This document shows, piece after piece, positions 1 to 64,000 of a stretch of DNA of 64,000 nucleotides (positions are counted from its first letter, which is position 1; each line of letters opens with the position of its first letter). The DNA comes from Knoellia remsis (GTDB lineage Bacteria; Actinomycetota; Actinomycetes; Actinomycetales; Dermatophilaceae), in contig NZ_PVTI01000022.1 in NCBI RefSeq assembly GCF_003002895.1, positions 1-64,000 on the forward strand. The letters are read 5' to 3'. Made by a program: the position numbers and the translations under genes. The notes below the pieces were generated by a model. The model was not told the origin of the DNA. It did no database searches and saw only the letters and a program-made list of their open reading frames with translations.

Positions 1-39
1 CAGCACTCACCCCTGCCCCCATCACCTTCATTTTCTGGA

Positions 40-630
40 TCAGTCAGGCTGCTCGAGACGGAGGAGGAACTCCTTCGCGGCCGGCCCACCGGCATACCCA
101 CCGACACCGACGCGGCCGGTGACCCCGCCGCCCGCGGGCAGCACCCGGTGGCACGGCACGAACAGGCACAGCGGGTTCGCGCCGAGCGCCGTCCCGACCG
201 CCCGGGACGCACGCGGCCGGTCGATCTCACCCGCGAGCGCGCCGTAGGTCGTCGTCTCGCCGTAGCCGACCCGCCCCGCGAGCTGCTCCAGCACCTCTCG
301 CTGGAACGCGCTCGCGAGGGCGAGATCGACGGGGGTCTCGAGGTGCCGCGCGCGACCGTCGAGGTAGGCCGCCAGCTCGCGTCGCGCGGTGTCGAGTGGT
401 CGCGCCTGTCGCAGCACCCGCGGTGACACGACGTCCGAAACCCGTTGCAACCAGTGGGTTTCCGCGTCGTCGTCCGGGACGTACGCCGACGTGACGAGCC
501 GTCCGTCGGCGCGCACCGCCAACAGCAACCGGCCCACGGCGGTCTCCTCCACGGCATACGAGACATCGGTCTCCGGCAGGACCGGAGGTCGCACGGGCGG
601 ATCGAAGTCGCTCCAGGTCGTCGTGGTCAT
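40..630 (-). CDS. ogt: Methylated-DNA--protein-cysteine methyltransferase
   Basis: This protein of 196 residues should remove alkyl groups from O6-alkylguanine (and O4-alkylthymine) by suicidal transfer to its own cysteine. The active-site PCHRV motif is at residues 159-163 with Cys160, preceded by the conserved Asn-Pro turn, and the C-terminus keeps the typical GYAGG...KEFLL helix. The region before residue 95 is the variable N-terminal domain. The ATG overlaps the stop of the upstream sigma-factor gene by 4 nt (ATGA), so translation is coupled. Known of the family: Ogt/MGMT acts alone without cofactor. Inferred: co-expression with the sigma factor and nearness of aidB make an alkylation-damage locus. 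The 39 bases before the stop at the window edge cannot be assigned. Confidence 0.95.
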   Translation of the reverse strand: MTTTTWSDFDPPVRPPVLPETDVSYAVEETAVGRLLLAVRADGRLVTSAYVPDDDAETHWLQRVSDVVSPRVLRQARPLDTARRELAAYLDGRARHLETPVDLALASAFQREVLEQLAGRVGYGETTTYGALAGEIDRPRASRAVGTALGANPLCLFVPCHRVLPAGGGVTGRVGVGGYAGGPAAKEFLLRLEQPD

Positions 631-1106
631 CGCAGCTCCTCGGCGTCGAGTCGGAGGGTCGCCAGCGCGTCCGAGACGAGGCGCCGGCTCATCGCCGGCG
701 TCGTCCCCAGGGAGGCGGCGACGGCGTGGTGGTCGAGGTCGCCGACGTACTTGAGGACGACGGCCTCGCGCTGTCGCTCGGGCAGGGCGGCGACCCGCGC
801 CCAGAGGTCGGCGTCGGGTTCGGTGGGCCCGGCCACGACGGGGGCCTCGGTGAGCGAGGCCGGGTCGTCGTGGGCGACGGTGCGCCGACGCGCCCGGTGG
901 GCGTCCATGGCGCAGCGGTGGGTGATCGTGAGCAGCCAGCCCCGCAGGTTGCGGGCCGACGTGAGCCGCGGATAGGCGGCAAGCGCCTGGGTCCACGCCT
1001 GTTGCGCGACGTCGTCGCCGAGGTCGGGCCCGGCGAGGGCGTGCGCGAGCCGGCCGACGTCGCGCCAGTGGGCGTCGACGAGGCTCTGGAACGGCGGCAG
1101 GCTCAC
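627..1106 (-). CDS. ECF-type RNA polymerase sigma factor
   Basis: About 159 residues if started at the GTG chosen here. Sigma region 2 covers roughly residues 8-75 (helices ending in the segment NLRGWLLTITHRCAMD) and region 4 about residues 105-150 (ALPERQREAVVLKYVGDLDHH then an HTH). No anti-sigma gene is adjacent. The downstream ogt overlaps by 4 nt, so Ogt is made with this sigma factor. An in-frame ATG at 1196 would overlap the PaaX gene and lacks conserved sequence. A TACCGT box (complement of 1116-1121) stands 9 nt before the GTG, which favours the shorter form. The function as a sigma factor is clear from the domains; its target promoters are unknown, with ogt itself the best guess. 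Confidence 0.85.
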   Translation of the reverse strand: MSLPPFQSLVDAHWRDVGRLAHALAGPDLGDDVAQQAWTQALAAYPRLTSARNLRGWLLTITHRCAMDAHRARRRTVAHDDPASLTEAPVVAGPTEPDADLWARVAALPERQREAVVLKYVGDLDHHAVAASLGTTPAMSRRLVSDALATLRLDAEELR

Positions 1107-1161
1107 GATGAGGGAACGGTATGCCGTCTGGTCCTGTGAGTGGGCGTGCGGAATCGACCGC

Positions 1162-1875
1162 TCAGCCGCCGGAGCGCAGCTGGTCGAGCTCGGCACGGTA
1201 GTCGGCGTACACCGTCGTGAGCTCGTCGACCGGCCAGTCCGCAGGCAGGAGCTCGGGCGGGAGCGCGGGGTCGGTGCCGAGATGGCCCACGGCGGCCACC
1301 ATCGTGAAGAAGCGCGTCCCGTCGTCCTGCGCCGCGCGCAGGGCGTCGAGGTAGGCCCGGCAGCGCGCCGCCCATGCCTCGAGATCCCACAGGCGGGCCG
1401 CCAGGGCGGAGGGGTCCTCCTGCGGTTGCGCCCGGAATCGGGTCACCACCTCGTCGAGGGGGCCGTCCGGGTCCTGCTCGAGGTTGGCGGGGCGGGTCCA
1501 CACGCCCTCACGCAGTTCGGCGAGGCGGCGACGGCGCATGTCCGTGCGCAAGGCGCTCCGGTCTGCTGGGCTGCGTCCCGTCGTCGTGACGACCTCCATC
1601 TCCCAGGTCCCGTCCCACGGCCGCTGCTGCGGAGGCTGGGCATCGCGCTGACGCTGGATGAGCCGGGCGGAGAGGGTGTAGACCGCGTCGTCGCGGGTGA
1701 GGTCACCGCTGGCGACCATGCGGGTCAGGGCGACGCGGGTGGTCGCCTCGGAGATCCCGAACAGTCCCATGGCAGTGACGATGTCGCGTCCGCTCAGTGA
1801 GGGTGGGTGGGCGCCCAGGAGCAGGCTGAGCACGGCGGAACGGGCCGTGACGGGCGGGACCAGGGGCGAGGACAT
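1162..1875 (-). CDS. PaaX-family transcriptional regulator
   Basis: A protein of 237 residues with an N-terminal winged helix (residues about 8-75, including LFGISEATTRVALTRMVASG) and a PaaX-type C-terminal domain. PaaX itself represses phenylacetate catabolism in response to phenylacetyl-CoA; no paa genes are present here, so the effector is unknown. It is divergent from aidB across a 73-bp gap, the usual arrangement for a regulator of the neighbouring acyl-CoA dehydrogenase gene, and is followed after 55 bp by the sigma factor-ogt pair. The start was chosen because a TAGGGT box lies exactly 7 nt upstream; a longer reading frame exists but would run through the promoter. Confidence 0.85.
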   Translation of the reverse strand: MSSPLVPPVTARSAVLSLLLGAHPPSLSGRDIVTAMGLFGISEATTRVALTRMVASGDLTRDDAVYTLSARLIQRQRDAQPPQQRPWDGTWEMEVVTTTGRSPADRSALRTDMRRRRLAELREGVWTRPANLEQDPDGPLDEVVTRFRAQPQEDPSALAARLWDLEAWAARCRAYLDALRAAQDDGTRFFTMVAAVGHLGTDPALPPELLPADWPVDELTTVYADYRAELDQLRSGG

Positions 1876-1882
1876 CGCTGGC

Positions 1883-1888
1883 ACCCTA
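1883..1888 (-). promoter_or_regulatory. -10 box of the PaaX-family gene (leaderless)
   Basis: TAGGGT on the minus strand, followed by 7 nt and the ATG at 1875. No Shine-Dalgarno sequence is present, so the transcript probably begins at the start codon. Confidence 0.7.
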
Positions 1889-1935
1889 CCGACGCCAGAC
1901 CTATTACGTTCTTGCGTCGAGTGTTGCTCGGGATG

Positions 1936-1941
1936 TAATGT
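1936..1941 (+). promoter_or_regulatory. -10 box of aidB (leaderless)
   Basis: TAATGT followed by 7 nt and the ATG at 1949. It faces the divergent PaaX-gene promoter, the two -10 boxes being under 50 bp apart, so one bound repressor could cover both. Confidence 0.7.
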
Positions 1942-1948
1942 CCGGGTC

Positions 1949-3607
1949 ATGTCCACGCACGAGGTGACGAACCAGGTCCCGCCGCTCGTCGGCGCCAACC
2001 CCGCCGAGGCCCCGGTCATCGCCGAGACGGTCGCCCGCTCCGGCATGGACGCCAGCGGTGTCGAGGAGATCACCACCCTCGGTGCCCTCGCCGGCACCGC
2101 CGAATCCCTCGAGCTGGGTGACCTCGCCGAGGCCCACCCGCCCGTGCTGAGGACGCACGACCGCTACGGCAACCGCGTCGATGAGGTCGCCTACGACCCG
2201 GCCTACCACCGCCTCATGCAGACCGCCGTCGAGCACGGCCTGCACGCCGCGCCGTGGGCGGACCCGCGTCCGCACGCGCACCTCATCCGCGCCGTGAAGT
2301 TCTCGGTGTGGGGGCACGTCGACGCCGGCCACGGGTGCCCGATCTCGATGACGTATGCCGCGGTGCCGGCGTTGCGTGCGGACGCCGCGCTCGCGGCGGC
2401 ATACGAACCACTACTCACGGCACCGGCATACGACCCCGGACTGCGCGCTCCGCTGACCAAGCGCGGGCTCATCGCCGGCATGTCGATGACCGAGAAGCAG
2501 GGTGGCTCGGACGTGCGCGCCAACACGACGTCGGCCCTGCCGCAGGGTGACGGGACCTACCGGATCACCGGGCACAAGTGGTTCACGTCGGCACCGATGT
2601 CCGACCTGTTCCTCACGCTCGCGCAGGCGCCGGAGGGGCTGACCTGCTTCCTCGTGCCGCGGGTGCTGCCCGACGGGACGCGCAACACCTTCACCCTGCA
2701 GCGGCTCAAGGACAAGCTCGGCAACCACTCCAACGCGAGCAGCGAGGTCGAGTACGACGGCACGCTCGCGTGGCGCGTCGGCGACGAGGGGCGTGGAGTG
2801 CGCACGATCGTCGAGATGGTCAACATGACCCGGCTCGACTGCGTCCTCGGGACGGCGACCCTCATGCGCACGGGCGTCGCGCAGGCAGCCCACCACGCGG
2901 CATACCGCACCGCCTTCGGTCGCCCGCTCAGCGACCAGCCGCTCATGCGCAATGTGCTCGCCGACCTCGCCGTCGAAGCCGAGGCCGCGACGACGGTCGG
3001 CTTGTGGCTCGCCGAGCTGACGGACGCGAGCGCGCGCGGGGATGAGCGGGCGGGGCTGCTGCGGCGGATCGGGCTGGCCGTGACGAAGTACCACGTGTGC
3101 AAGCGCGGCCCCGTCCACGCGGCCGAGGCCCTCGAGTGCCTGGGCGGCAACGGGTATGTCGAGGAGTCGCGGATGCCGCGGCTCTACCGCGAGGCGCCGC
3201 TGATGTCGATCTGGGAGGGGTCCGGCAACGTCGCCGCCCTCGACGCGCTGCGGGCGATGGCGCGCCAGCCGGAGTCGGTCGCGGTGCTGCTCGACGAGCT
3301 GCGGTCGGCGACGGGTGCCGATCCGCGGTACGACGCGGCGGTGGCCGAGCTCGAGCGGACGATGCTGGGGCTCGACCCGGGTGACCAGGACGCGATGCAG
3401 TTCCGGGCGCGGCGCATCGTCGGTGACATGGCGACGCTGCTCCAGGGGTCGCTGCTCGTGCGCCACGGGGACCCGGCCGTCGCGGATGCGTTCTGCGCGA
3501 GCCGGCTCGCGGGGGAGCGCGGTGACGTCTTCGGGACGCTGGGGCCGGGTGTCGACGTCGGCCGCATCGTCGAGCGCGCGACCCCCAAGGTCCCCGAGAC
3601 CGCCTGA
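1949..3607 (+). CDS. aidB: AidB-like acyl-CoA dehydrogenase
   Basis: A flavoprotein of 552 residues, close to the 541 of E. coli AidB and much longer than ordinary acyl-CoA dehydrogenases (about 380). The AidB signature MSMTEKQGGSDVRANTT is at about residues 176-192, with the FAD-binding LxxLKDKLGNHSNASSEVEY segment about 70 residues later. The C-terminal helical extension that lets E. coli AidB bind DNA is present. E. coli AidB is induced by alkylating agents and protects DNA; its natural substrate is uncertain. Closeness to ogt supports a stress role here. The start is set by the leaderless -10 box. The gene is followed by a hairpin at 3721-3784 that may end transcription. Confidence 0.9.
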   Translation: MSTHEVTNQVPPLVGANPAEAPVIAETVARSGMDASGVEEITTLGALAGTAESLELGDLAEAHPPVLRTHDRYGNRVDEVAYDPAYHRLMQTAVEHGLHAAPWADPRPHAHLIRAVKFSVWGHVDAGHGCPISMTYAAVPALRADAALAAAYEPLLTAPAYDPGLRAPLTKRGLIAGMSMTEKQGGSDVRANTTSALPQGDGTYRITGHKWFTSAPMSDLFLTLAQAPEGLTCFLVPRVLPDGTRNTFTLQRLKDKLGNHSNASSEVEYDGTLAWRVGDEGRGVRTIVEMVNMTRLDCVLGTATLMRTGVAQAAHHAAYRTAFGRPLSDQPLMRNVLADLAVEAEAATTVGLWLAELTDASARGDERAGLLRRIGLAVTKYHVCKRGPVHAAEALECLGGNGYVEESRMPRLYREAPLMSIWEGSGNVAALDALRAMARQPESVAVLLDELRSATGADPRYDAAVAELERTMLGLDPGDQDAMQFRARRIVGDMATLLQGSLLVRHGDPAVADAFCASRLAGERGDVFGTLGPGVDVGRIVERATPKVPETA

Positions 3608-3720
3608 GCCGCCCGGCGAGGCACCGATCGGTGAGCCGAGCACCCATGCGTGGTCGGTTGACCAGGTGGTGGCTCGCTCGGTCGTGACGTATGCCGTCCG
3701 CTCGCGACCCGGCGTAGGCG

Positions 3721-3784
3721 CCACTGATTGCGCACGGTTCGCATGCTCGCTGGCGCTCGCGTGCGAACTGTGCGCAATCAGTGG
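3721..3784. repeat. Long palindrome, hairpin family C, copy 1
   Basis: Two 26-nt arms (3721-3746 and 3759-3784) pair with only two mismatches around a 12-nt loop. The outer arm begins CCACTGATTGCGCA. Sister copies with the same outer arm logic but a different inner arm lie at 19383-19452 and 55872-55933. It lies 113 bp after aidB and may serve as a terminator, although no U-tract follows. Confidence 0.75.
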
Positions 3785-3792
3785 GGTATGGG

Positions 3793-3900
3793 GTGCCGGG
3801 AACTGGCAATCAGTGGGGTGTGGGGTGCCGGGAACTGGCAATCAGTGCCGACTTGTTGCTGGTTCCGTGCGGTCGGGGTGAACGGAATCGGCAATCAGTG
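3793..3900. repeat. Intergenic repeat family B, locus 1
   Basis: Three units containing GGCAATCAGTG (3793-3815, 3825-3847, 3878-3900). The second unit forms an imperfect stem-loop, GGAACTGGCAA pairing with TTGCTGGTTCC. The same unit recurs at 33621-33750 and, in variants, at 23664-23690, 55941-55969 and 59044-59106. Confidence 0.7.
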
Positions 3901-3925
3901 GGGGTGCGGGTGCGAGAGTGGGGGC

Positions 3926-4759: not shown

Positions 4760-4779
4760 CGGTCCATCACCGTCTCGCC

Positions 4780-4785
4780 TAGCAT
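4780..4785 (+). promoter_or_regulatory. -10 box of the RsbW-like gene (leaderless)
   Basis: TAGCAT, then 7 nt, then the GTG start at 4793. No ribosome binding site precedes the start. Confidence 0.65.
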
Positions 4786-4792
4786 CCCCGGG

Positions 4793-7095: not shown

Positions 7096-8572
7096 CGCCA
7101 CCCCCGGCGCGGACCGGGCAACGGGTGAGGCAGCCACGCTCACCCGTCGCGGGCTGCTCACCGTCGCGTTCGTGCTGCTGCTCGTCGTCGGTCTCGCCCT
7201 CCCGCACGCCGCCGCCCCCGATCTAGGCCCACGCGGCTGGGCACCGGGCACCATCCTCCCGATCACCCTCACACCGGCAGCGGTCACCGCGACCCTCTGG
7301 ACGGCATACGCGCTCGGCGCCGCAGGCGTCGTCCTCGCGCTGCGCCAGGGGATGCGCGCCCTCTCGACGCCGGTCGTCGGCGGGCTCGCGCTCGCGGCGG
7401 CGCTGACGACACCGTTTGGGTCGGCGGACCACGTCAACTACGCGGCATACGGGCGGATCCTCGCGCTCGGCGACGACCCGTGGCTCGTCTCACCCGTGTC
7501 GTGGCGCGGTGACGCCGACCCCGTCGTCAGCGCCGTCGAGTCGCCGTGGCGCGAGGAACCGAGCGTCTACGGGCCGTTCGCGACCCTGCTCCATGGGCTC
7601 GGCTCGCTGGTCGGCGGGGACAACCTGCGCGAGACCGTGTGGCTGTGGCAGCTCGTCGTCATCGCGTCGTGGCTGGCGGTGCGCTGGTGCCTGCGCCGGC
7701 TGCTGCCGGGCCACGAAGGGCGGGTCGACGCCCTCTGGACGGCCAACCCGCTCGTCTTCGCCACCGGCGTCCTCGGCGCGCACGTCGACATGCTCGCGGC
7801 GGCGTTCGTCGTCGGCGCCGTGTGGGCGGTGCAGCGGTATGCCGGCGTCGGCGGCGCCGTGCTCGCCGGCACCTTCGGGGGGCTCGCGTTGTCGTCGAAG
7901 TTCACGTATGCCGTTGTGCTGCTTGCGATTCTGCTCGCCCTGCGGTCACGGCGGGTCGCCCGCGGTGCCGTCATGATCGGCGTTGCGGCGCTGGTGGCGG
8001 GGGTGCTGCACCTGTGGGCCGGACCGCACGTGTTCGACCAGGTCGGGCGGTCGGCCAAGGCGGTCGCGCTGTCCTCGCCGTGGCGGATGCTGCTCGAGGT
8101 GGGCGGAGGCGGACCCACGGTGCGGTCGGTCATCTCGGTGCTCGCGGCGCTGGCGGCCGTCGGGTTCGCGGTGTGCCTCGCCCGGCTCACGACGCCCCGT
8201 GGTGACGGGGAGGGTGCGCGGGCGCTGCGCTGGGTCGTCGTGCTCGGCGGTGGCTACGCGCTGGCGGCGGCGTACTCGCTGCCCTGGTACGACGTGCTCG
8301 TGTGGTCGGCACTGCCTGCCGTGGTGTCGGGGGTCGGGGTGGCCCGAGTGGGGCTCGTCGAGCTCGCGCTGCTCGCGCGGCTCACGGTGATGTCGTTCGC
8401 CTACACCCCGGGGCGCGTCCTCGGCATGACACCCGGTGTCGAGGCGGTGACGATGACGGTGCGCAAGGAGGTCGCGCCGGTGCTGCTGCTGGCCGTGTGG
8501 GCCGGGGTCGTCGTGGCCGCCTTACGCGCGCGACCGCGGGCTCCCGGCGTCCCGAACCGTCCAATTGGGTGA
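7076..8572 (+). CDS. Polytopic mannosyltransferase-like protein (MptB type)
   Basis: An integral membrane protein of 498 residues with about 12 hydrophobic segments, resembling the MptB-type polyprenol-phosphomannose-dependent alpha-1,6-mannosyltransferases (GT-C fold). The first periplasmic loop has SADHVNYAAYGRILALGDDPW, typical of GT-C enzymes with an acidic residue after TM2. The GTG start lies inside the preceding gene (20-nt overlap); this fits translational coupling. The last codons (encoding NRPIG and the TGA) lie inside a copy of repeat family A, so the original C-terminus was probably altered by the repeat. Inferred: lipoglycan or arabinomannan-like polymer synthesis. Confidence 0.75.
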   Translation: MSRVASDATPGADRATGEAATLTRRGLLTVAFVLLLVVGLALPHAAAPDLGPRGWAPGTILPITLTPAAVTATLWTAYALGAAGVVLALRQGMRALSTPVVGGLALAAALTTPFGSADHVNYAAYGRILALGDDPWLVSPVSWRGDADPVVSAVESPWREEPSVYGPFATLLHGLGSLVGGDNLRETVWLWQLVVIASWLAVRWCLRRLLPGHEGRVDALWTANPLVFATGVLGAHVDMLAAAFVVGAVWAVQRYAGVGGAVLAGTFGGLALSSKFTYAVVLLAILLALRSRRVARGAVMIGVAALVAGVLHLWAGPHVFDQVGRSAKAVALSSPWRMLLEVGGGGPTVRSVISVLAALAAVGFAVCLARLTTPRGDGEGARALRWVVVLGGGYALAAAYSLPWYDVLVWSALPAVVSGVGVARVGLVELALLARLTVMSFAYTPGRVLGMTPGVEAVTMTVRKEVAPVLLLAVWAGVVVAALRARPRAPGVPNRPIG

Positions 8573-8751
8573 GATCGGGACGGGAGGTGAGCGCGCGGCA
8601 TACCGGCGCGGCTGTCCCCAACCGTCCAATTGGGTGAGATCGGGACGGGGTGTCCCCAACTGTCCAATTGGGTGAGATCGGGACGGGGGGTGAGCGGACG
8701 GCATACCGGCGCGGCTGTCCCTAACTGTCCAATTGGGTGAGATCGGGACGG
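8551..8751. repeat. Repeat family A, four tandem copies
   Basis: Four copies (about 8551-8584, 8615-8650, 8653-8688, 8718-8751) of a 33-35-bp unit: a CCAATTGG palindrome core inside outer arms close to CGTCCCGA and TCGGGACG. Two GGCATAC heptamers (8597-8603 and 8699-8705) sit between copies. The first copy contains the stop codon of the upstream gene. The array lies between convergent genes. Other loci: 47895-47929, 49995-50191 and 62641-62757. Confidence 0.85.
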
Positions 8752-12508: not shown

Positions 12509-12531
12509 GCGTCGGGGGTGAGCGGACGGCA

Positions 12532-31494: not shown

Positions 31495-31501
31495 GAGTCG
31501 T

Positions 31502-32890
31502 ATGCCGTCCGCTCGCCCCTCGCTGCCCGCGCGCCTCGGCGGTCGGCTGCGTGCGTTCTTCGCCCTCGACGACGAGTGGGTCCGGCCGAGTCCGGGCATC
31601 GGGCAAAGTGATCTGACCTTCGGCCTCGTCATGCTGGGGCTGGGGTTGCGCGCGCTCGAGCTGTCCCGCAGCGCCGGCGGGCTGACCGGCGTGACCGAGC
31701 CGCGATGGGTGCAGATGCTCACCGTGGCAGCGGGTGCCCTGCCCCTCGTGGCGCGTCGGCGCTATCCCGTCGCGGTGGGGGTCTTCCTCGCGCTGCACAT
31801 GTTCGTCGTCGGCGTGACGATGGGCCCGGTCATGGGGCAGCTGGCGATGCAGATCAGCTACTTCATCGCTCTGTTCAGCCTCGTGGCGTGGTCACGCTCG
31901 CGCCGCACGGCGGTCGTCGTCGGTGGCGGCATCATCGCGTTCATGCTGCTCTGGGTCGTGTGGCAGTTCGCCCTCGGATCAGGAGCGAGCGAGTACCTCG
32001 ACGCACGCCCCGAGGATGCCTCGACGGGAATCTTCGCGCCGCTGCCTGCCGCAATCATCCTGTCCTTCGCCGTGAACATCCTCTACTTCCTCGGGGCGCT
32101 CGTCGGTGGGCAGGTCGCCTGGCGGGGAGCACGTCAGCGCGCCGCGCTCGAGGCCCAGGCGGCGACGATCCACGAGCAGGCCGACTCGCTGCGCCGCCGC
32201 GCCGTCGTCGACGAGCGGCTGCGCATCGCCCGCGAGCTGCACGACGTCGTCGGGCACCACGTCGCCGTCATCGGCATCCAGGCCGGTGCTGCCCGTCGGG
32301 TGCTCGACCGTCGGCCGGCAGAGGCAGCCGCTGCGCTCGGACGCATCGAGTCGAGCTCGCGCGACGCCGTGACCCAGATGCGCGGCCTGCTCGGGACTTT
32401 GCGCGACATCGAGGACACCGCCGACGGCACGAATCCCGATGTGTCGCAAGGTTCCCGGGACGGCGACTCCCGCACACCCGAGCCGACGCTCGCGGACCTC
32501 GCCACGCTGGTCGGTGACCACGACTCGGGAAGCCTGCGGACGGCATACCGGCTCGTCGAGAGTCGTGACGGCGCCCACCGGGACGTGCCCGCTCCGGTGG
32601 GGCTGACCCTCTACCGCATCGCGCAGGAGGCGCTCGCGAACGTCTCACGGCACTCGACGGCGACGAGGGTCGACGTGGTCGCGCGGGTCGAGTGCGAGGG
32701 CCGCGCATATGCCGAGGTGGAGGTCGTCGACAACGGGCGCCCGCGGGCCGGCACGTCGGGGTCCGGACTCGGCCAGCTGGGCATGCGGGAACGGGCCGCG
32801 TCTCACAAGGGGATGGTCGACATCGGCCCACGACCTGTCGGGGGCTATCGTGTGCGCGTGCGAATACCGTTGGGGGAGAAGGATGTCTGA
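31502..32890 (+). CDS. Sensor histidine kinase (NarL/DesK type)
   Basis: A kinase of 462 residues. Four to six membrane helices (residues 38-205) form the sensor. The HisKA_3 dimerisation helix has ERLRIARELHDVVGHHVAVI with the phosphorylated His247. The ATPase domain has LYRIAQEALANVSRHS (N box), VVDNG (G1) and GSGLGQLGMRERAA (G2). A poorly conserved stretch of about 60 residues separates the H box from the ATPase. It overlaps the response-regulator gene by 8 nt. The signal is unknown. Confidence 0.92.
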   Translation: MPSARPSLPARLGGRLRAFFALDDEWVRPSPGIGQSDLTFGLVMLGLGLRALELSRSAGGLTGVTEPRWVQMLTVAAGALPLVARRRYPVAVGVFLALHMFVVGVTMGPVMGQLAMQISYFIALFSLVAWSRSRRTAVVVGGGIIAFMLLWVVWQFALGSGASEYLDARPEDASTGIFAPLPAAIILSFAVNILYFLGALVGGQVAWRGARQRAALEAQAATIHEQADSLRRRAVVDERLRIARELHDVVGHHVAVIGIQAGAARRVLDRRPAEAAAALGRIESSSRDAVTQMRGLLGTLRDIEDTADGTNPDVSQGSRDGDSRTPEPTLADLATLVGDHDSGSLRTAYRLVESRDGAHRDVPAPVGLTLYRIAQEALANVSRHSTATRVDVVARVECEGRAYAEVEVVDNGRPRAGTSGSGLGQLGMRERAASHKGMVDIGPRPVGGYRVRVRIPLGEKDV

Positions 32891-33620: not shown

Positions 33621-33750
33621 CCGGGAACCGGCAATCAGTGCGACTTCTTGCTGGTTCCGTTCGGGTGGGGGTGAACGGATTCGGCAATCAGTGCGACTTG
33701 TTGCTGGTTCCGTTCGGTGGGGGTGAACGGATTCGGCAATCAGTCGGGGG
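33621..33750. repeat. Intergenic repeat family B, locus 2
   Basis: Three units in tandem. Each has GGCAATCAGTGCGACTT, and the first forms a stem-loop GGAACCGGCAA/TTGCTGGTTCC (11 bp, one mismatch). A second part reads GTGAACGGATTCGGCAATC. It begins 3 bp after the response regulator stop. Confidence 0.8.
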
Positions 33751-43162: not shown

Positions 43163-43168
43163 GCCCGT

Positions 43169-43993
43169 ATGCCGTCCCGTCCCGACCTCGAGATCACCTC
43201 ACCGGCGAACCCGCGCCTCAAGCAGGTCGTCGGGCTCCGGCGCCGGCGTGCCCGTGACGACGCCGGGCTCACGGTCGTCGAGGGTTTCGAGGAGCTGACC
43301 CTGGCGATCGGGGCGGGAGTGCGGCCGCGCACCGTCTTCTATGCGCCGGAGCTGATGCTCGACGCCGATGCGCAGCTCGCCCTCGTCGACGACGCGCGCC
43401 GCGACGGCGTCGAGACGATCCGAGTCTCGCGCAGCGCCTTCGGGAAGATGGCCTACCGCGAAGGACCCGACGGGTTCCTCGCCCTCGTCCCCGCGGTGCG
43501 CCGCAGCCTCGCCGACCTCGACCTCCCGGACGCGCCGCTGCTCCTCATCTGCGAGGGACTGGAGAAGCCGGGCAACCTCGGCGCGATGCTGCGCACGGCC
43601 GACGCCGCCGGTGTCGATGCGGTGATCGCGGTCGATCCGGTCACCGACTGGGGCAACCCCAACGTCGTGCGCGGTTCCAAGGGAACGGTTTTCGCCGTCC
43701 CGGTGGCGAGCGCCACGCTCGGTGAGACGGTCGACTGGCTGCGGGAGGGCGGCATACGCCTCGTCGCGACGACACCGGACACCGACGCGCTGCACACCGA
43801 CACCGACCTCACCGGCGGCGTCGCGATCGCCGTCGGGACCGAGAAGTTCGGCCTCACCGACGAGGCGCTCGCGGCCGCGGACGCGCGGGTCCGCATACCG
43901 ATGCACGGCGCCGTGAACTCACTCAACGCGTCGGCCGCCGCGGCGATCGTCGTCTACGAGGCGGTGCGCCAGCGCGGGTCCGCGAATCGCTGA
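43169..43993 (+). CDS. TrmH/SpoU-family RNA 2'-O-methyltransferase
   Basis: A SPOUT methyltransferase of 274 residues. An N-terminal L30e-like RNA-binding domain (RLKQVVGLRRRRARDDAGLTVVEGFEEL) precedes the knot with motif 1 EGLEKPGNLGAMLRTADAAG, motif 2 AVGTEKFGLTD and motif 3 IPMHGAVNSLNASAAAAI. It should methylate a ribose in 23S rRNA or a tRNA using SAM; which nucleotide is unknown. Confidence 0.9.
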   Translation: MPSRPDLEITSPANPRLKQVVGLRRRRARDDAGLTVVEGFEELTLAIGAGVRPRTVFYAPELMLDADAQLALVDDARRDGVETIRVSRSAFGKMAYREGPDGFLALVPAVRRSLADLDLPDAPLLLICEGLEKPGNLGAMLRTADAAGVDAVIAVDPVTDWGNPNVVRGSKGTVFAVPVASATLGETVDWLREGGIRLVATTPDTDALHTDTDLTGGVAIAVGTEKFGLTDEALAAADARVRIPMHGAVNSLNASAAAAIVVYEAVRQRGSANR

Positions 43994-46219: not shown

Positions 46220-46226
46220 GACCGCC

Positions 46227-46232
46227 ATTCTC
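46227..46232 (-). promoter_or_regulatory. Possible -10 box of purB (leaderless)
   Basis: GAGAAT on the minus strand, 7 nt before the ATG at 46219. Confidence 0.45.
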
Positions 46233-49290: not shown

Positions 49291-51128
49291 GGTCGGTCCT
49301 TCGGGGTGCTGGCTGCGGTGAGCTGCGCAGAGGAGGCAGAGGTGGGGGAGTCGGCGGTGAGGTCGATGACCTCATCGACGCCGTCGAGCCCTTCGGCGCG
49401 ATGGCTCACGAGGACAACGCTACGCCCCTCCGTCGCTGACCAGACGTCCCGCATGACCGCCGTCGCGGTCGCGTGGTCGAGCTGCGCGACGGGCTCGTCG
49501 AGGAGGATGACCGGCCGCCCGGAGAGCACGGCTCGGGCGAGCGCGATGCGGGTGCGCTCGCCGCCGGAGACGCCGCGACCACCCGCGCCGAGACCGGTGT
49601 CAAGACCATCCGGCAGGGTCGCGAACCAGCCGTCGAGACCTGCGACGTGCAGCGCGGCGAGGATGGCGGTGTCGTCCGCATCGGGGGCTGCGAGAACGAG
49701 ATTGGCCCGGACATCGGCGGCGAAGAGGTGCGGCTCGTCGTCGACGACGGCGACGAGGCCGCGCACCTCCTCGAGCCCGAGCCCGGTGGCGTCGGTGCCG
49801 TCGACGAGGTAGCGACCGGCCGACGGGTCGAGGGCGCGCGCGAGGACGGCGAGCAGGGTCGACTTGCCGGAGCCGTTCGCCCCGACGACCGCGACCCGCC
49901 GCCCGGGCGGCAGGTCGAGGTCGACCGGTCCCACGTCGCGGCGTCCGTCCACCCACCCAGCGGTCACGCCCGCCAGCCGCAGGTGCGGCACCCCCGTCCC
50001 GATCTCACCCAATTGAACGGCTCGGGATGCCTTGGGATCGGTCTCCCCCGTGAAAAACTCACCCAATTGGACGGTTGGGGACGTCCCGGGGTGCGCGTCA
50101 GTTGTCCCGATCTCACCCAATTGGACAGTTGGGGACGTCCCGGGGTGCGCGTCAGTTGTCCCGATCTCACCCAAGTGGACGGTTCGGGACGGCTCGCGGG
50201 CAGCGGCGACGGCCGGCTCCTGGTCGAGCAACGCGTCGACGCGAGACTGTGCCTCCTCGGCCCGCGCCTGCGCCCGGGCCGCATCGGCCAGTGGCAGCAA
50301 GGTGTCGGCGAGCGCCGCCGGCACGACGACGAGCAGCGCCATGACCGGTGCTCCGAGGTCGGACCGGACCGCGAGCGCGGCCATCACGACGCAGGCGATG
50401 CCAGTCAGCCCGAGCACTCCGCCGGTGACGAGCGCCCGGCCACGACTCTGCCGACGCAGTGCGCGAGCGAGGTCGTCCTGCGCCCGGTCGAGGCGCGCGA
50501 GCACCTCACCTTCGGCGCCGATCGCCTGCAGCTGTGCCGTATGCCGTGCCACGAGGTCCGCGGCCCGGCCCACCTCCGCGCGGGCTGCGCCCACGACGGG
50601 CTGGGCGCCTCGTTCGAGGCCGAGCCCCCACCGGTGCAACGCCACGGTGACGAGCGCCCACACCGCGATGACGCCACCGGCGACCGGGAGCAACGCCCCC
50701 GCGAGCACCGTCGCGAAGACCAGGGTGAGCGCCGCCGCGAGCACCGGCACCCGCACCCGCACCTGCGACTCGACGACGTCGGTGAGGTCGTTGACCACCC
50801 CGGTGAGGACGGCGCTGCGGGACCGGCGACCGAGGCGAGCCGGCGTCAGCGGGATGAGGGCGGCATACACGTCCGTGCGGTCGCGAGCGAGGTCGTCGAG
50901 CGCGCGGTCGTGCGAACGCAGCCGCTCGAGGTAGCGGAAGAACGGTCGCGCCATCCCGAACGCCCGCACCGACACGATCGCCATGAGCAGCGTGAGGATG
51001 ACCGGGCGTTCAGCGGCGCGGACGATGAGCCAGCCCGAGGTCGCGGTGAGGGCGACCCCGGACGACAGCGCGAGCCCACCCCAGAGTCCGGCGAGCAGGT
51101 CGGTGCGTCCCCGAGCGAGCGTCGTCAT
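49287..51128 (-). CDS. cydC: Thiol reductant ABC exporter subunit CydC, with repeat-derived linker
   Basis: A protein of 613 residues with the membrane domain (residues about 10-290) and ATPase domain (Walker A GANGSGKST at 416-424; signature VSGGERTRIALARAVL; Walker B ILLDEP). CydDC exports glutathione or cysteine equivalents needed for bd-oxidase haem insertion. Residues 313-378, between the two domains, consist of four near-identical units around TVQLGEIGTTDAHPG, encoded by in-frame copies of the genomic repeat family A. The gene overlaps cydD and blaI. Confidence 0.93.
   Translation of the reverse strand: MTTLARGRTDLLAGLWGGLALSSGVALTATSGWLIVRAAERPVILTLLMAIVSVRAFGMARPFFRYLERLRSHDRALDDLARDRTDVYAALIPLTPARLGRRSRSAVLTGVVNDLTDVVESQVRVRVPVLAAALTLVFATVLAGALLPVAGGVIAVWALVTVALHRWGLGLERGAQPVVGAARAEVGRAADLVARHTAQLQAIGAEGEVLARLDRAQDDLARALRRQSRGRALVTGGVLGLTGIACVVMAALAVRSDLGAPVMALLVVVPAALADTLLPLADAARAQARAEEAQSRVDALLDQEPAVAAAREPSRTVHLGEIGTTDAHPGTSPTVQLGEIGTTDAHPGTSPTVQLGEFFTGETDPKASRAVQLGEIGTGVPHLRLAGVTAGWVDGRRDVGPVDLDLPPGRRVAVVGANGSGKSTLLAVLARALDPSAGRYLVDGTDATGLGLEEVRGLVAVVDDEPHLFAADVRANLVLAAPDADDTAILAALHVAGLDGWFATLPDGLDTGLGAGGRGVSGGERTRIALARAVLSGRPVILLDEPVAQLDHATATAVMRDVWSATEGRSVVLVSHRAEGLDGVDEVIDLTADSPTSASSAQLTAASTPKDRP
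49995..50191. repeat. Repeat family A, four copies inside cydC
   Basis: Four copies, at about 49995-50028, 50059-50082, 50104-50137 and 50158-50191, in minus orientation and all in the same frame of cydC. The middle part has an exact 54-bp period (18 codons). The second copy has lost the GATC part and reads TGAAAAACTC. Confidence 0.9.
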
Positions 51129-55871: not shown

Positions 55872-55933
55872 CACTGATTGCGCAGGATGCGCATCCTGGC
55901 TCCGCTGCGGATGCGAATCCTGCGCAATCAGTG
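55872..55933. repeat. Long palindrome, hairpin family C, copy 3
   Basis: Arms CACTGATTGCGCAGGATGCG and its complement pair over about 25 bp with one mismatch around an 11-nt loop. The outer 13 bp equal those of copy 1, but the inner part reads GGAT(G/T)CGCATCC instead of GTTCGCA. It lies 15 bp after the holin-like gene. Confidence 0.7.
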
Positions 55934-59040: not shown

Positions 59041-59043
59041 CGC

Positions 59044-59106: not shown

Positions 59107-59265
59107 GGTCGGATGCAGAAAAAATTGGGAAATCGGGCCAGTAGTTCGCTTGACCTGTGGTTTTCCTGGCCCGACCGGGTCACACTGTCAGCACCGCCCG
59201 TGACCATCAGGCGGCAGCCGTGTGCGCACGACGAGGTGCGCACCGCAGGAGGAGAGGACAACGAC

Positions 59266-62200
59266 GTGACTCGACGACGCACCGTGCGCCGCGGCTTCAC
59301 GACGGTGGCCGGGATCGCCGCGGCAGCACTCGCCGTGACGGCAGCAGCACCCCCATCAGGGGCCGCACCCGGAGACCGTGAGATCACCGTCGCGAAGGCG
59401 CCCAAGGCGCAGTCGCAGACCGACAAGGTCAAGAAGGCCAAGAGCGGAGACAAGCTCGGCCGCCATGACCGCGACCTGCTCGAGAAGGCCCAGGACGAGG
59501 GCGCCAAGCGCGTCGTCGTCATGCTTGCCACCGAGAAGGGCCGCACCGCAGAGACGGTCAAGGCCATCGAGGCCGCCGGTGGTGTCGCCGCCACCGTCAA
59601 CGACCGGCTCGGCTACATCAGCGCCAGCGTTCCGACCGGCAAGGTCGACGCGCTCGCCAAGCAGAAGTCGATCGTCGCGGTCGACCTCAACGAGAGCATC
59701 CCGCTGCCCAAGCCCGAGGCCGAGGCCCCGGCGGGTGCGCAGGCGGCCGCCGTCCCGGCGCCCGGTCCGTCCACGCCGGACGACAACCCCTACATGCCGA
59801 CGCGTGACATCGGTTCGGTCGCGTTCAAGAAGGCCAACCCGACGTGGGACGGTCGCGGTATCACCATCGGCATCATCGACTCCGGTGTCGACCTCGACCA
59901 CCCCGCCCTGCAGAAGACCACGACCGGCGAGCGCAAGATCGTCGACTGGGTCACCGGCACCGACCCGCTCCTCGAGGGCGACGGCTCGTGGCGCGCCATG
60001 CTGACGCAGGTCACCGGCCCGACCTTCACGTATGCCGGTCAGTCCTGGACCGCACCTGCCGGCACCTACCGGATCAACCGGGTCGCGGAGAGCATCTCGC
60101 TCAACTCCGACGCCAAGGGCGACTTCAACCGTGACGGTGACACCACCGACACGTGGGGCATCCTCTACGACGAGAAGACCAACGACATCTGGGTCGACAT
60201 GAACCAGGACCGCGTCTTCTCCGACTCCGAGAAGATGCGCCCCTACAAGGAGAAGTTCGACATCGGTCGCTTCGGGGTCGACAACCCGGCCACGGCGATC
60301 AACGAGTCGATGCCGTTCACGGTCGAGTTCCGTGAGGACGTCGACCTCACCCCGGCGGGCATGCCCGGCCAGAAGGCCGACTTCGTCAACATCGGCGTCG
60401 TCGAGTCCGCGCACGGCACGCACGTCGCCGGCATCGCGGCGGCCAACGGTCTCTTCGGTGGGCAGATGGACGGTCAGGCGCCCGGCGCCAAGATCGTCTC
60501 GAGCCGCGCCTGCTCGTGGGGCGGCGGCTGCACCGCGGTCGCGCTGACCGACGGCATGGTCGACCTCGTCGCCAACCGCGGCGTCCAGATCGTCAACATG
60601 TCGATCGGTGGCCTCCCGGCCCTCAACGACGGCAACAACGCCCGTGCCCGCCTCTACGACCGGCTCGTCTCCGAGTACGGCGTGCAGCTCGTCATTTCGG
60701 CGGGCAACAGCGGCCCCGGCATCAACACGATCGGTGACCCGTCGGTCGCGACCGACGTCATCTCGGTCGCGTCGTCGATCACCAAGGAGACGTGGAAGTC
60801 GAACTACGGCGCCGACGTCTCCTCGGCAGTGGCCCTGCACAACTACTCCTCGCGCGGTCCGCGTGAGGACGGCGGCTTCAAGCCCAACGTTGCCGCGCCG
60901 GGCTCGGCCATCTCGTCCATCCCGACGTGGCAGCCGGGCGGCCCGGTCCCCGAGGCCGGCTACCCGCTTCCGCCGGGCTACGCGATGTTCAACGGCACGT
61001 CGATGGCCTCGCCGCAGACCGCCGGTGCGGGAGCCCTGCTCCTCTCCGCCGCCAAGGCGAAGGGCATCGCCGTGACGCCGCGTCAGCTGCGTGACTCGAT
61101 CTACAGCTCGGCCGACTACAAGGCCAACATCGAGGCGATCGGTCAGGGCGCCGGCATCGTCGACGTCCCCGGTGCGTGGTCGATCCTCAAGACGTCGCCG
61201 CGCTCGCAGGACTACACGGTGACGGCTCCGGTCTGCACGCCGCTGTCGAGCCTGCTCGCGACGCCGAACCAGGGTCCGGGCCTCTACAACCGCTGTGATG
61301 CCGCGAACGGTGGTGTCGTCGTCGGGCAGCAGAAGGCCTACGACATCAAGGTGACGCGCACGTCGGGCGCGAAGGGCAATGTCAGGCACAACGTTCGTCT
61401 CGTCGGCAACGACGGCACGTTCCGGCTGCCGACGAGCCAGCGCCCGTCGCCGCTGGGTGGCACGACCAACATCCCGCTCAAGGTCAAGGCCACGACGCCG
61501 GGTGTCCACTCGGCGATCCTCGAGATCGACGACCCGTCGACGAACATCGTCGACAAGCGGGTCATGCTCGTGGTCGTCGTGAGCCAGGACCTCAAGGCGC
61601 CGACCTTCACGGTCACGCAGTCGGGCAGCGTGGAGCGCAACCTGTTCAAGCGTCTCTTCGTCACCGTTCCGGCGGGCACGAAGGCCCTCCAGGTCAACCT
61701 CTCCGGCATCGCGTCCGGTTCGCAGGTCCGCTGGATCGCCTACAACCCGTACGGCAACCCGGTCGAGTCGACCTCGTCGATTGTGTGCTTCACCAACTAC
61801 AACAACGGTGGCGGCTGCAAGCCGACCTCGCGCTCCTACAGCAACCCGATCCCGGGCGTCTGGGAGCTCCAGGTCGAGGCGCGCCGCACGACGCCGACCC
61901 TCAACAACCCGTACTCGATCACCGCGAGTGCGCAGGGTGTCGTCGTCGACCCGGCCACCCAGACCATCGCCTCGGCGAAGGTCGGCCAGGCCGTGCCCGT
62001 GTCGTGGAAGGTGACCAACCAGCTCGCCCCCGTGACGATCGCGCCGAAGGGCGGGCCGCTCGGCTCGGCTGTGGCCGGTCGCAAGACGATCGCGAACGGT
62101 GAGCTGCAGAAGTTCACCGTGACGATCCCGGCTGGGGCCAGCTCGTTCGTCGCGAAGATCGGCAACCCGTCCGACAAGGGCGCCGACCTCGACCTCTTCG

Positions 62201-62562
62201 TCCGCAACGCGGCCGGGGCGATCGTGGCGCAGCAGGCGGACGGTGACAGCGAGGAGGCCGTGTCCATCGCGAACCCGGCGGCCGGCACCTACACCGTCGA
62301 GGTCGACGGCTACTCGGTCCCGACCGGGTCGACGCAGTACGACTACCTCGACGTCTTCTACTCGGCCGGTCTCGGCACCCTCACGGTGCCGTCGACGACG
62401 ACCGAGCTCGGCACGGGCGAGTCGACGACGGTGAACGGCACGCTCACCGTCGCGAGCGTCCCCGAGTCGGGGCGCCAGGTGTCCGGCGAGATGCGGGTCC
62501 TCTCCACCGAGGGCGCGCTGCTCGGCACGGGCCAGGTCCTGATCGGTTCGGTCACCCCGTGA
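59266..62562 (+). CDS. Secreted S8 subtilisin-family protease
   Basis: A protease of 1098 residues. A signal peptide (RRTVRRG then a hydrophobic core, cleavage near residue 33) and a pro-region (to about 150) precede the catalytic domain with Asp205 (GIIDSGVDLDHP), His383 (ESAHGTHVAG), oxyanion Asn481 and Ser579 (NGTSMASP). Residues about 210-365 form a long insertion between Asp and His that includes an EF-hand-like NRDGDTTD. The C-terminal part has beta domains, including a PPC-like one (ADLDLFVRNAAGAIV). A GGAGAGG site 8 nt before the GTG supports this start. Confidence 0.93.
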   Translation: MTRRRTVRRGFTTVAGIAAAALAVTAAAPPSGAAPGDREITVAKAPKAQSQTDKVKKAKSGDKLGRHDRDLLEKAQDEGAKRVVVMLATEKGRTAETVKAIEAAGGVAATVNDRLGYISASVPTGKVDALAKQKSIVAVDLNESIPLPKPEAEAPAGAQAAAVPAPGPSTPDDNPYMPTRDIGSVAFKKANPTWDGRGITIGIIDSGVDLDHPALQKTTTGERKIVDWVTGTDPLLEGDGSWRAMLTQVTGPTFTYAGQSWTAPAGTYRINRVAESISLNSDAKGDFNRDGDTTDTWGILYDEKTNDIWVDMNQDRVFSDSEKMRPYKEKFDIGRFGVDNPATAINESMPFTVEFREDVDLTPAGMPGQKADFVNIGVVESAHGTHVAGIAAANGLFGGQMDGQAPGAKIVSSRACSWGGGCTAVALTDGMVDLVANRGVQIVNMSIGGLPALNDGNNARARLYDRLVSEYGVQLVISAGNSGPGINTIGDPSVATDVISVASSITKETWKSNYGADVSSAVALHNYSSRGPREDGGFKPNVAAPGSAISSIPTWQPGGPVPEAGYPLPPGYAMFNGTSMASPQTAGAGALLLSAAKAKGIAVTPRQLRDSIYSSADYKANIEAIGQGAGIVDVPGAWSILKTSPRSQDYTVTAPVCTPLSSLLATPNQGPGLYNRCDAANGGVVVGQQKAYDIKVTRTSGAKGNVRHNVRLVGNDGTFRLPTSQRPSPLGGTTNIPLKVKATTPGVHSAILEIDDPSTNIVDKRVMLVVVVSQDLKAPTFTVTQSGSVERNLFKRLFVTVPAGTKALQVNLSGIASGSQVRWIAYNPYGNPVESTSSIVCFTNYNNGGGCKPTSRSYSNPIPGVWELQVEARRTTPTLNNPYSITASAQGVVVDPATQTIASAKVGQAVPVSWKVTNQLAPVTIAPKGGPLGSAVAGRKTIANGELQKFTVTIPAGASSFVAKIGNPSDKGADLDLFVRNAAGAIVAQQADGDSEEAVSIANPAAGTYTVEVDGYSVPTGSTQYDYLDVFYSAGLGTLTVPSTTTELGTGESTTVNGTLTVASVPESGRQVSGEMRVLSTEGALLGTGQVLIGSVTP

Positions 62563-62586
62563 CCTGACCGTCAGCTCCTGACAGTC

Positions 62587-62630
62587 ACGAGCGCCCCGTA
62601 TGCCGCCCGCGCGGCATACGGGGCGCTCGT
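62587..62630. terminator. 20-bp hairpin terminator built from GTATGCC/GGCATAC
   Basis: Perfect 20-nt arms 62587-62606 and 62611-62630 around CCGC. The heptamer lies in each arm (62598-62604 and 62613-62619). It lies between the protease gene and the convergent lipoprotein gene, together with repeat A. Confidence 0.8.
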
Positions 62631-62640
62631 CTGCGTGCGC

Positions 62641-62757
62641 CGAACCGTCCACTTGGGTGAGCTCGGGACGCGAAGGGGTGTCCCCAACCGTCCACTTGGG
62701 TGAGCTCGGGACGCGAAGGGGTGTCCCCAACCGTCCACTTGGGTGAGCTCGGGACGC
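62641..62757. repeat. Repeat family A, three tandem copies (variant)
   Basis: Three copies with core CCACTTGG and GAGCTC instead of CCAATTGG and GAGATC, spaced by about 43 bp; the variants are shared by all three, which points to local amplification. They end directly at the stop of the lipoprotein gene. Confidence 0.85.
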
Positions 62758-62759
62758 GG

Positions 62760-63440
62760 TCAGCGGGTCTTGCGCGCCGACGTCACCTCGAACGCCGGTC
62801 CCTGCTGGCAGGTCGTCGCCACGTCGTCGCGGCGCACGCCGGTGACCTCGACCTGCCCGTCCGGCACGCTGACCTTGCCGACGAGGACGAAGACGCCCTG
62901 GTCGGAGGTGAGCACACGGCAGCCGTCCTCGACGCCGGCGGCGACGGTGCCGCGCAGGGTCACCGGCACTGCGGCCGGGCCGCCCGACGGCACGGGGGTG
63001 AGGTCCTCGGGGTACTCGGTCATCGTCGCCTTCCTCACTTGGAACGGAAGCGCCTGCGGGCAGTTCGCGTCGGGGGTGTCGATCGTGACGCCTTCGACGG
63101 TGTATGCCGTCCCGGCGCTGAGGCCCTTCGTCTCACCGACGAGGATGTACTGCGTCGCGGTGCGGTCGTCCTTGAACACGGTGCAGCCACCCTCGAGCGA
63201 GACGACCCGGCCGGTCATCGTCATGGGCCGGGCGCGCCCGCTGCCGGGCATCGACGGGCCCGCGGTCGGTGTCCCGGACGCCGTCGGCGCGACACTGTCC
63301 GTGCTCGCCTCCGTCGTCAACGAGCTGGACGGGGTTGCGGGGTCGCCGCTACCGCACGCGGACAGGAGCCCGACCGCGAAGGCCAGCGGGACGGCATACC
63401 GGCTCGTCGACCTCACCGGACCGGACGGGAACGTGCGCAT
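62760..63440 (-). CDS. Lipoprotein with two tandem domains
   Basis: A protein of 226 residues. The leader ends in the lipobox LLSAC (Cys29), followed by a Ser/Thr-rich spacer (about residues 30-72). Then come two related domains (about 73-140 and 160-226), each with a Gly-Cys near the start, a LVG strand and a second Cys before QxxPFxV or QGPAFEV, so each may hold one disulphide. I do not recognise the family. The start is set by a leaderless TAGGTT box. Confidence 0.75.
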   Translation of the reverse strand: MRTFPSGPVRSTSRYAVPLAFAVGLLSACGSGDPATPSSSLTTEASTDSVAPTASGTPTAGPSMPGSGRARPMTMTGRVVSLEGGCTVFKDDRTATQYILVGETKGLSAGTAYTVEGVTIDTPDANCPQALPFQVRKATMTEYPEDLTPVPSGGPAAVPVTLRGTVAAGVEDGCRVLTSDQGVFVLVGKVSVPDGQVEVTGVRRDDVATTCQQGPAFEVTSARKTR

Positions 63441-63447
63441 GCTCATG

Positions 63448-63453
63448 AACCTA
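63448..63453 (-). promoter_or_regulatory. -10 box of the lipoprotein gene (leaderless)
   Basis: TAGGTT on the minus strand, 7 nt before the ATG at 63440. Confidence 0.65.
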
Positions 63454-63692
63454 CGACGCGGCGGGCCGCTGCGGGGTTCCCGCAGGGGCCCGCACGGCCG
63501 CTGAAAAGCGCGTTTGGGAGGTACGCGGGGGGTGAGGGTACGGTGTCGCTCAACAGGCACAAAGGGTCCGTCCACACCGTGGTACGGGCTCCCAGACACC
63601 GCCGTCCGACCGCACGCCCACCCACAGCGTGAGGCACCGGGCGGCCCGACCGGGCGTCGACACCACGGCGCCTCCTGGGAAGAGGAACGCCC

Positions 63693-64000
63693 GTGAGCGA
63701 CACCGAGGTCGCAGCAGACAGCCCCGCCCGCGGCAAGGACCACCACGTGTCCGTCGACCCCGCCGCGGTGAGCGAGCCCCGCTCCGCCGCCGACGGCGGA
63801 CCCGACATGGTCCAGCTCCTCACCCCGGAGGGCGAGCGCGTCCCGCACCCGGAGTACGACGAGATCGTCGACCGGCTCAGCCACGACGAGCTGCGCGAGC
63901 TCTACCGCGACCTCGTGCTCATCCGCCGCGTCGACCAGGAGGCGACCGCCCTGCAGCGTCAGGGCGAGCTCGGGCTGTGGGCCTCGCTCCTCGGGCAGGA
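63693..64000 (+). CDS. Pyruvate (or branched-chain keto acid) dehydrogenase E1 alpha, partial
   Basis: The first 102 codons are in the window; the gene runs off the edge. After a charged N-terminus of about 38 residues comes VQLLTPEGERV...YRDLVLIRRVDQEATALQRQGELGLWASLLGQ, the typical start of the thiamine-diphosphate E1 alpha subunit. GAGG about 7 nt before the GTG is the ribosome binding site. The leader may be long: a TACGGT box lies at 63539-63544, about 150 bp upstream. Confidence 0.85.
   Translation, partial: MSDTEVAADSPARGKDHHVSVDPAAVSEPRSAADGGPDMVQLLTPEGERVPHPEYDEIVDRLSHDELRELYRDLVLIRRVDQEATALQRQGELGLWASLLGQ

Follow-up and report, generated by a model that had tools for sequence, protein, structure and literature searches.

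The genome of the actinobacterium Knoellia remsis contains, in thousands of copies, an asymmetric octamer, CGGCATAC, that is strongly over-represented throughout the 64,000-nucleotide stretch analyzed here (contig NZ_PVTI01000022.1, positions 1 to 64,000; hereafter the window). By analogy with the uptake words of Neisseriaceae and Pasteurellaceae, we judge it reasonably probable that CGGCATAC is a DNA-uptake-sequence-like signal, with dialects, in Gram-positive bacteria that possess ComEC and Tad pili. The same analogy inclines us slightly towards the fuller proposal that this Gram-positive family has an uptake octamer of its own, which would be read in Tad-pilus/ComEC transformation, would exist in at least four spellings (CGGCATAC, CGGCATCC, CGGCATTC, and CCGCATAC, with CGGCGTAC probably another), and would have been lost several times.

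An octamer in excess within and between genes

The first-pass annotation of the window (71.6% GC) had counted about 79 copies of the heptamer GGCATAC/GTATGCC and called the word hugely over-represented, and exact counting agrees, with 43 copies of GGCATAC and 36 of GTATGCC. Markov models of orders 0 to 5, computed with the motif masked, predict only 5.9, 1.6, 1.8, 1.3, 2.6, and 1.2 heptamers, respectively. Because a C lies directly 5′ of the heptamer in 77 of these 79 copies, the true unit is the octamer CGGCATAC. Across the source genome (3,573,222 bp in 62 contigs), the heptamer occurs 3,350 times versus 719 for the reversed-word control, and the octamer 3,277 times versus 276 (3.57 Mb). In the genome sample used for detailed analysis (860,743 bp, or ~861 kb), order-1 models placed GGCATA, GGCATAC, and CGGCATAC first among hexamers, heptamers, and octamers, respectively, with 764 copies of the octamer present and 11.9 expected. 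Failure of higher-order Markov models to predict the count had been set beforehand as a check, and masked models of orders 4 and 5 indeed do not predict it. Without masking, the predictions for the 785 heptamers in the sample are 747 at order 5, 354 at order 4, and 83 at order 3; the order-5 fit is circular, because the motif supplies nearly all of its own hexamers (845 GGCATA and 825 GCATAC versus 785 heptamers). Among 784 copies of CGGCATAC in 881 kb, 47% are preceded by A and 3% by T, and 2% are followed by T, with little information beyond one base on each side, which excludes a dispersed repeat element.

The placement of these copies was assessed with gene calls from our own codon-usage script rather than a standard caller (753 genes, 88% coding, in ~861 kb). 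The window contains 51 coding copies, 3 that straddle a gene boundary, and 25 that lie in its 6.9 kb of non-coding DNA, in line with the earlier mention of copies in gaps. In the genome sample, density is 0.70/kb in genes (525 copies) and 2.12/kb outside them (224), and 15 copies straddle. The excess extends to all six reading frames, of which several had been named by the annotation: the observed and expected counts are 199/4.0, 41/0.6, and 14/0.6 for the sense frames and 236/6.6, 29/3.3, and 6/0.1 for the antisense frames. Since the excess persists both in every frame and in gaps, codon-pair bias, the other simple explanation against which the annotation had asked that the word be checked, is excluded. 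Over six bins of rising codon adaptation, density runs 0.62, 1.08, 0.95, 0.78, 0.55, and 0.33/kb, and its fall at high adaptation indicates that copies avoid the most constrained genes. Gaps between convergent genes are densest (3.14/kb; 41 copies in 13.1 kb), followed by tandem (2.43/kb) and divergent (1.67/kb) gaps. In tandem-gene gaps the sense orientation is favored by 85 to 43, unlike the balance seen for copies within genes.

Copies also tend to be arranged as inverted pairs. Among 44 neighboring pairs no more than 40 bp apart, 18 are hairpin-facing (GTATGCCG..CGGCATAC), 9 face the opposite way, and 17 are tandem, versus chance expectations of 11, 11, and 22. With starts allowed up to 60 bp apart, there are 24 GTATGCCG...CGGCATAC pairs, many with long perfect stems. 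Both hairpins proposed by the first-pass annotation in the window are real and strong (Table 1): that at 62588-62629 begins 25 bp past the stop codon of the called gene 59284-62562 and is terminator-like, and the other sits in the gap adjoining the called gene 44810-46228 (-). The two reported overlaps of the motif with start codons likewise agree with our gene calls. The copy at 12528, which the annotation placed in a -10 box, starts 17 bp before a called gene start.

Table 1. Copies and inverted pairs of the motif in the window
Feature	Coordinates	Strand	Details
Octamer CGGCATAC/GTATGCCG	1..64000	both strands, 42 + 35	77 of 79 heptamers
Inverted pair GTATGCC 2353 / GGCATAC 2398	2353..2404		within called gene 1949-3607
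Inverted pair GTATGCC 17038 / GGCATAC 17078	17038..17084		gene junction
Motif copy spanning ATG start codon of called gene 31502-32890	31500..31506	-	gene call
Motif copy spanning ATG start codon of called gene 43169-43993	43167..43173	-	gene call
Inverted motif pair, 12-bp outer stem	46285..46330		fold -21.6 kcal/mol, z -4.6
Inverted motif pair, perfect 19-bp stem, 4-nt loop	62588..62629		DNA fold -29.2 kcal/mol, z -8.8

Two other repeats occupy intergenic DNA. One forms clusters around ACTGATTGC (window positions 3723-3892, 33632-33737, and 55873-55925) with a spacing of ~32-53 bp, and the corresponding word ACTGATTG has 62 copies in ~861 kb, 4 of them coding by our gene calls. The second lies around GTCCAATTGGGTGAGATCGGGAC (window positions 8561-8729, 47909, and 50063-50117), and the corresponding word CCAATTGG is found at 39 places in the same sample, 6 of them coding.

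Family range, dialects, and motif-free mobile DNA

The nearest named records by ComEC belong to Phycicoccus, Janibacter, Intrasporangium, Terrabacter, Humibacillus, Arsenicicoccus, and Ornithinimicrobium, genera whose family is given as Intrasporangiaceae in NCBI, going by the entry for Phycicoccus, and as Dermatophilaceae in other schemes (PMC9123174). ComEC loci of 13-23 kb contain 22 copies of the word in P. elongatus, 16 in O. cavernae, 13 in Humibacillus, and 12 in Terrabacter, and none in the corresponding loci of Phycicoccus sp. 4-1443, Janibacter indicus, and Intrasporangium flavum. The motif-rich loci include those of 22 kb from Terrabacter, Ornithinimicrobium, and an uncultured Tetrasphaera. 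Counts over whole genomes and related genera, which the annotation had recommended, bear out the excess. All eight congeners hold 1,971-2,982 copies each, and the 27 other sampled genera of the family divide into 12 with 939-4,724 copies and 15 with 11-293. Three further family genera in a sample of 394 class members comprise two rich genomes (1,192-2,476 copies) and one poor (7). None of the 386 class members from outside the family exceeds 386 copies, and the largest relative excess noticed there is 170 copies versus 27 of the reversed word (G351). The word is thus confined to one family, Intrasporangiaceae/Dermatophilaceae.

On a ComEC tree, the motif-rich label requires 8 changes. The genus of the window groups with I. 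flavum and genome G009, counted as motif-free, in a small clade (91/94) within the Terrabacter/Humibacillus clade. This one-gene tree would fit an old word that was lost several times. Three sequences at 16-21% identity in the first ComEC alignment (L015, L016, and L022), probably misframed, were dropped from the second.

Individual sites are retained between species and genera. Sites of the K. remsis genome are identical in the congener G002 (75% identity) in 45 of 84 cases, versus 11 of 135 for control 8-mers with the same pattern of strong and weak bases. The corresponding fractions are 12/14 versus 6/31 in G006 and 10/27 versus 3/60 in other motif-rich genera. In motif-free genera no site is retained (0/47), a row that on its own carries little information, as the controls also stand at 0/108. 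A stricter alignment with G002 yields 49 shared sites out of 76 in K. remsis and 57 in G002, where 23% of all 8-mers are conserved.

Several genera of the family use other spellings. The word CGGCATCC occurs 3,816 times in the genome of G024 and 3,949 times in that of G033, two genera that are sisters on the ComEC tree (93/97), and in G033 it shows the six-frame spread, intergenic preference, and hairpins that characterize CGGCATAC. Genome G020 carries 3,135 copies of CGGCATTC alongside 1,025 of CGGCATAC, and G027 carries 1,204 copies of CCGCATAC (reversed control, 107), a word first spotted in 12 kb and then borne out genome-wide. In a 72-kb sample of G030, CGGCGTAC is present 51 times versus 9.6 expected, with a non-coding density of 0.84/kb (7 copies), and as a candidate from this sample it is probably the dialect of that genus. 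The dialects follow the family phylogeny on the single-gene tree, in that CGGCATCC belongs to two sister genera and each remaining dialect to one genus. Intergenic preference is strong in samples of G024, G028, and G033, with ratios of 2.5-4.8.

Other words proved more equivocal. G009 contains 1,336 copies of CGGCATCC genome-wide, yet 28 of those in its sample are coding and 1 is non-coding; because the word is almost restricted to genes, it was treated as codon usage and G009 was counted as motif-free. The words ACCGGCTCC/ACCGCCTCC of G014 are also over-represented, but with hardly any copies outside genes, and were likewise attributed to codon usage. A candidate from a 72-kb sample of G031, CGTACGCC, occurs 41 times, 12 of them in 10.7 kb of non-coding DNA, and G011 has 20 copies of CGTCATAC in 50 kb (3.0 expected) alongside the main word. 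No comparable word was detected in samples of 60-98 kb from G010, G016, G017, G018, G021, G022, G026, and G035.

Some related words were also noticed elsewhere. In G053, from another family, CCGCATAC recurs about 50 times, every ~61 bp, at C1:28082-31265, and this series probably reflects tandem repetition of some kind, such as a CRISPR array. An 18-kb locus (L123) of the Actinomycetes metagenome-assembled genome BP5.bin62 contains CGGCGTCC 27 times versus 4.2 expected, and G055 contains 1,548 copies of CGGCATCC versus 184 of the reversed control; these may represent similar words in other families.

The even spread described for the window holds in that CGGCATAC is found on both strands and chromosome-wide, but the copies are denser between genes and are missing from one large element and several smaller stretches. 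The longest motif-free stretch of the genome (41,491 bp; C2:118563-160054, loci L057-L060) has no copy where 36.8 are expected. Among seven of its proteins that were scanned, three gave no match, and the others reveal that the stretch encodes a TrwC relaxase (PF08751), a TraG/VirD4-type coupling protein (PF02534), and an M23 peptidase; beside these genes is an open reading frame that resembles a serine recombinase by eye. The stretch is an integrated conjugative element, and on this one element the word is scarce in recently acquired mobile DNA, as is typical of uptake sequences. Four further motif-free gaps of more than 7 kb have GC fractions of 0.60-0.67. In Neisseriaceae, atypical distribution of the DNA uptake sequence (DUS) has been used to find conjugative elements (PMC7371117).

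Comparison with uptake words and with other frequent motifs

If the uptake interpretation is correct, CGGCATAC would act as a self-recognition word that raises the odds of uptake or recombination of the DNA bearing it during natural transformation. Such a bias would accumulate copies where harm is least, namely in gaps, terminator hairpins, and permissive Ala-Tyr/Tyr-Ala codons; it would keep copies once placed and leave newly acquired elements without them. The proposal entails that the cells would be transformable, that uptake or recombination would prefer CGGCATAC, and that the word would be read by a DNA-binding protein of the membrane or one associated with a pilus.

The word matches DUS and the uptake signal sequences (USS) of Pasteurellaceae in most genomic respects tested. 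Like DUS, it is short and asymmetric, present in thousands of copies far above masked Markov expectation, enriched between genes and arranged in terminator-like inverted pairs in K. remsis, atypical in a conjugative element, and spelled differently among clades. DUS likewise occur in inverted pairs at terminators, and the kingDUS variant has 5,918 copies in 2.4 Mb (PMC3630211). The differences are that CGGCATAC is unrelated to DUS in sequence, that its hosts are Gram-positive with high GC, that they have Tad/Flp rather than type IVa pili, and that uptake is putative. DUS/USS systems employ a sequence-specific pilin receptor, ComP, with PpdA/ComN also proposed, and no ComP-like receptor was found here. 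Pasteurellaceae USS have a 9-bp core with family-level types a few bases apart, resembling the present spellings, and carry an extended flank termed eUSS (PMC12616744), whereas the information in CGGCATAC ends about one base to each side.

Genes for competence machinery (ComEC and Tad pili) are present, yet they also occur in motif-free genera. ComEC and TadE were each found in 57 of 58 relatives, and matches to a TadA-type ATPase in 58 of 58 genomes, 52 of them above the family cut-off. K. remsis possesses two Tad/Flp pilus clusters (cluster 1 on contig C9 and cluster 2 on C3), with homologues in motif-rich and motif-free genera alike (tblastn, 20 and 8 loci). The motif-free G021 and G022 have one TadA match each, and the congeners G001, G002, G004, G006, and G007 each have one unbroken match to cluster-2 tadA. 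Cluster 2 of G033 has no recognizable TadE, TadF, or Flp, and G016 and G017 are without TadG. The gene order of 20 Tad loci does not distinguish genera rich in the motif from those without it, and Tad minor pilins are found in both kinds of genera, none tracking the motif among the loci compared. In the actinobacterium Micrococcus luteus, Flp/Tad pili and comEA/comEC are reported to be needed for transformation (PMC6370729, PMC8467076).

Several observations weigh against an uptake function. Neither ComEC, TadA, TadE, nor either Tad cluster tracks the presence of the motif, and because no tested machinery separates the two classes of genera, the reader of CGGCATAC was not found. The cluster-2 tadA gene of K. 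remsis itself (C3:49254-57273, L065) is split by an insert of ~6.7 kb with two long open reading frames that resemble recombinases by eye, and the motif-rich congener G003 has no cluster-2-type TadA match. Copies within genes lack a sense/antisense bias (254 sense, 271 antisense), a further difference from DUS; orientation bias inside genes is described for all known uptake sequences (PMC2346458), although such a one-orientation excess is an empirical trait of these sequences and not part of their definition. Intergenic preference varies by genus, being weak in G002 (ratio 1.6) and not found in samples of G011, G020, and G027 (ratios 0.2-1.2). One-off neighbors of CGGCATAC sum to 658 versus 584 expected (370 versus 380 in the motif-free pool), and with totals so near expectation, recognition would need to be very strict. 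In the two CGGCATCC genera, site sharing is not above control (3/16 versus 70/386), and dialect sites seldom fall on sites of the K. remsis motif (0/10 and 1/11).

Alternatively, the word might be made and kept by methylation- or mismatch-directed repair that targets its core, and have no part in uptake, as in a HIP1-like system; we regard this as unlikely. HIP1, too, is a hugely frequent octamer, and in some species its place is taken by alternate HIPs together with a matching methyltransferase (PMC4390886), which parallels the alternative spellings described here, and the small excess of one-off neighbors could mean that neighbors have been converted. However, HIPs are palindromes, and CGGCATAC differs from its own reverse complement. 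Transition neighbors are not consistently depleted, and models of this kind alone do not predict inverted pairs after stop codons. HIPs are tied to methyltransferases, but neither adenine-methyltransferase family covered by our search is common to the genomes rich in the motif or a dialect: N6_Mtase (PF02384) is absent from K. remsis, G003, G006, G015, G020, and G024, and PF01555 from G002-G004, G006, G011-G013, G015, G024, G028, G029, and G033 (cytosine and other families lay outside this search). The first-pass annotation had likened the word to an uptake sequence, a methylation target, or a HIP1-like repeat. The first analogy is favored by the asymmetric word, intergenic enrichment in K. 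remsis, terminator-like pairs, motif-free conjugative element, and genus dialects; the second is disfavored for these two methyltransferase families, and the third by the palindromic nature of HIP1.

It is quite unlikely that CGGCATAC is instead the chromosome-wide binding site of a family-specific chromosome-organizing or nucleoid protein. The spread over the whole chromosome, the retention of sites between genera, the absence of the word from the conjugative element, and the failure to find an uptake receptor would all suit such a protein. Yet there is no strand or replichore pattern, and one-letter genus spellings and terminator-like hairpins would be unexpected. The organizing motifs KOPS, parS, and matS are strand-biased or regional.

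A recombination hotspot of the Chi type, at which a helicase-nuclease would act, is very improbable, even though CGGCATAC, like Chi, is a frequent octamer and its recognition is apparently strict. In G002, whose chromosome is a single contig, 20 samples of 20 kb taken around the chromosome contain 140 forward and 148 reverse copies, the best half-split strand skew having p = 0.62, and three K. remsis contigs are similarly balanced (127/132, 101/100, and 82/73). RecC (PF04257) is absent from K. remsis and all eight congeners, which means that CGGCATAC does not serve as a RecBCD Chi in this genus; AdnAB/AddAB lay outside the search. These results uphold the annotation's argument against Chi-like and replication-orienting sites, and the inverted pairs and intergenic preference also do not fit. 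Of the 27 other family genera, 13 are motif-poor, with G027 and G030 placed in this group, and 7 of these have RecC, versus 3 of the 14 that are rich in CGGCATAC or CGGCATCC/CGGCATTC. The distribution of RecC in the family is patchy, and genera that lack the motif have it more often, yet, like the two methyltransferase families, it does not separate the two classes of genera.

Finally, neither an artefact nor an accident of composition accounts for the word: adapter contamination, codon-pair bias, and a dispersed repeat element are all refuted. CGGCATAC does lie within an Illumina adapter, which we take to be P7, and the inner 12-mer of that adapter (ACGGCATACGAG) has 20 copies in ~861 kb. However, the 16-base adapter stretch AGACGGCATACGAGAT has 0 copies there, which excludes adapter contamination; a single-contig congener has 2,805 copies of CGGCATAC, and the six-frame excess excludes codon pairs.

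Implications for gene exchange among actinobacteria

A literature search, with subscription papers and preprints mostly outside its reach, found no uptake word described in Actinobacteria, consistent with the annotation's knowing of no description in this group. To our knowledge, uptake words are otherwise recognized in two Gram-negative families. If CGGCATAC is an uptake word, sexual isolation by this means would have a third evolutionary origin, this one in a phylum of monoderms whose pilus is of another kind. The addition of Actinomycetota as a third case, in which closely related genera differ in spelling or have lost the word, would show that such words arise repeatedly. It would also provide a natural experiment on what reads them; the search for a receptor is well posed, since neighboring genera have the word, an altered spelling of it, or neither. 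The word would predict gene exchange partners among environmental actinobacteria, and it would offer a handle for genetic work, in which its addition might render DNA transformable.

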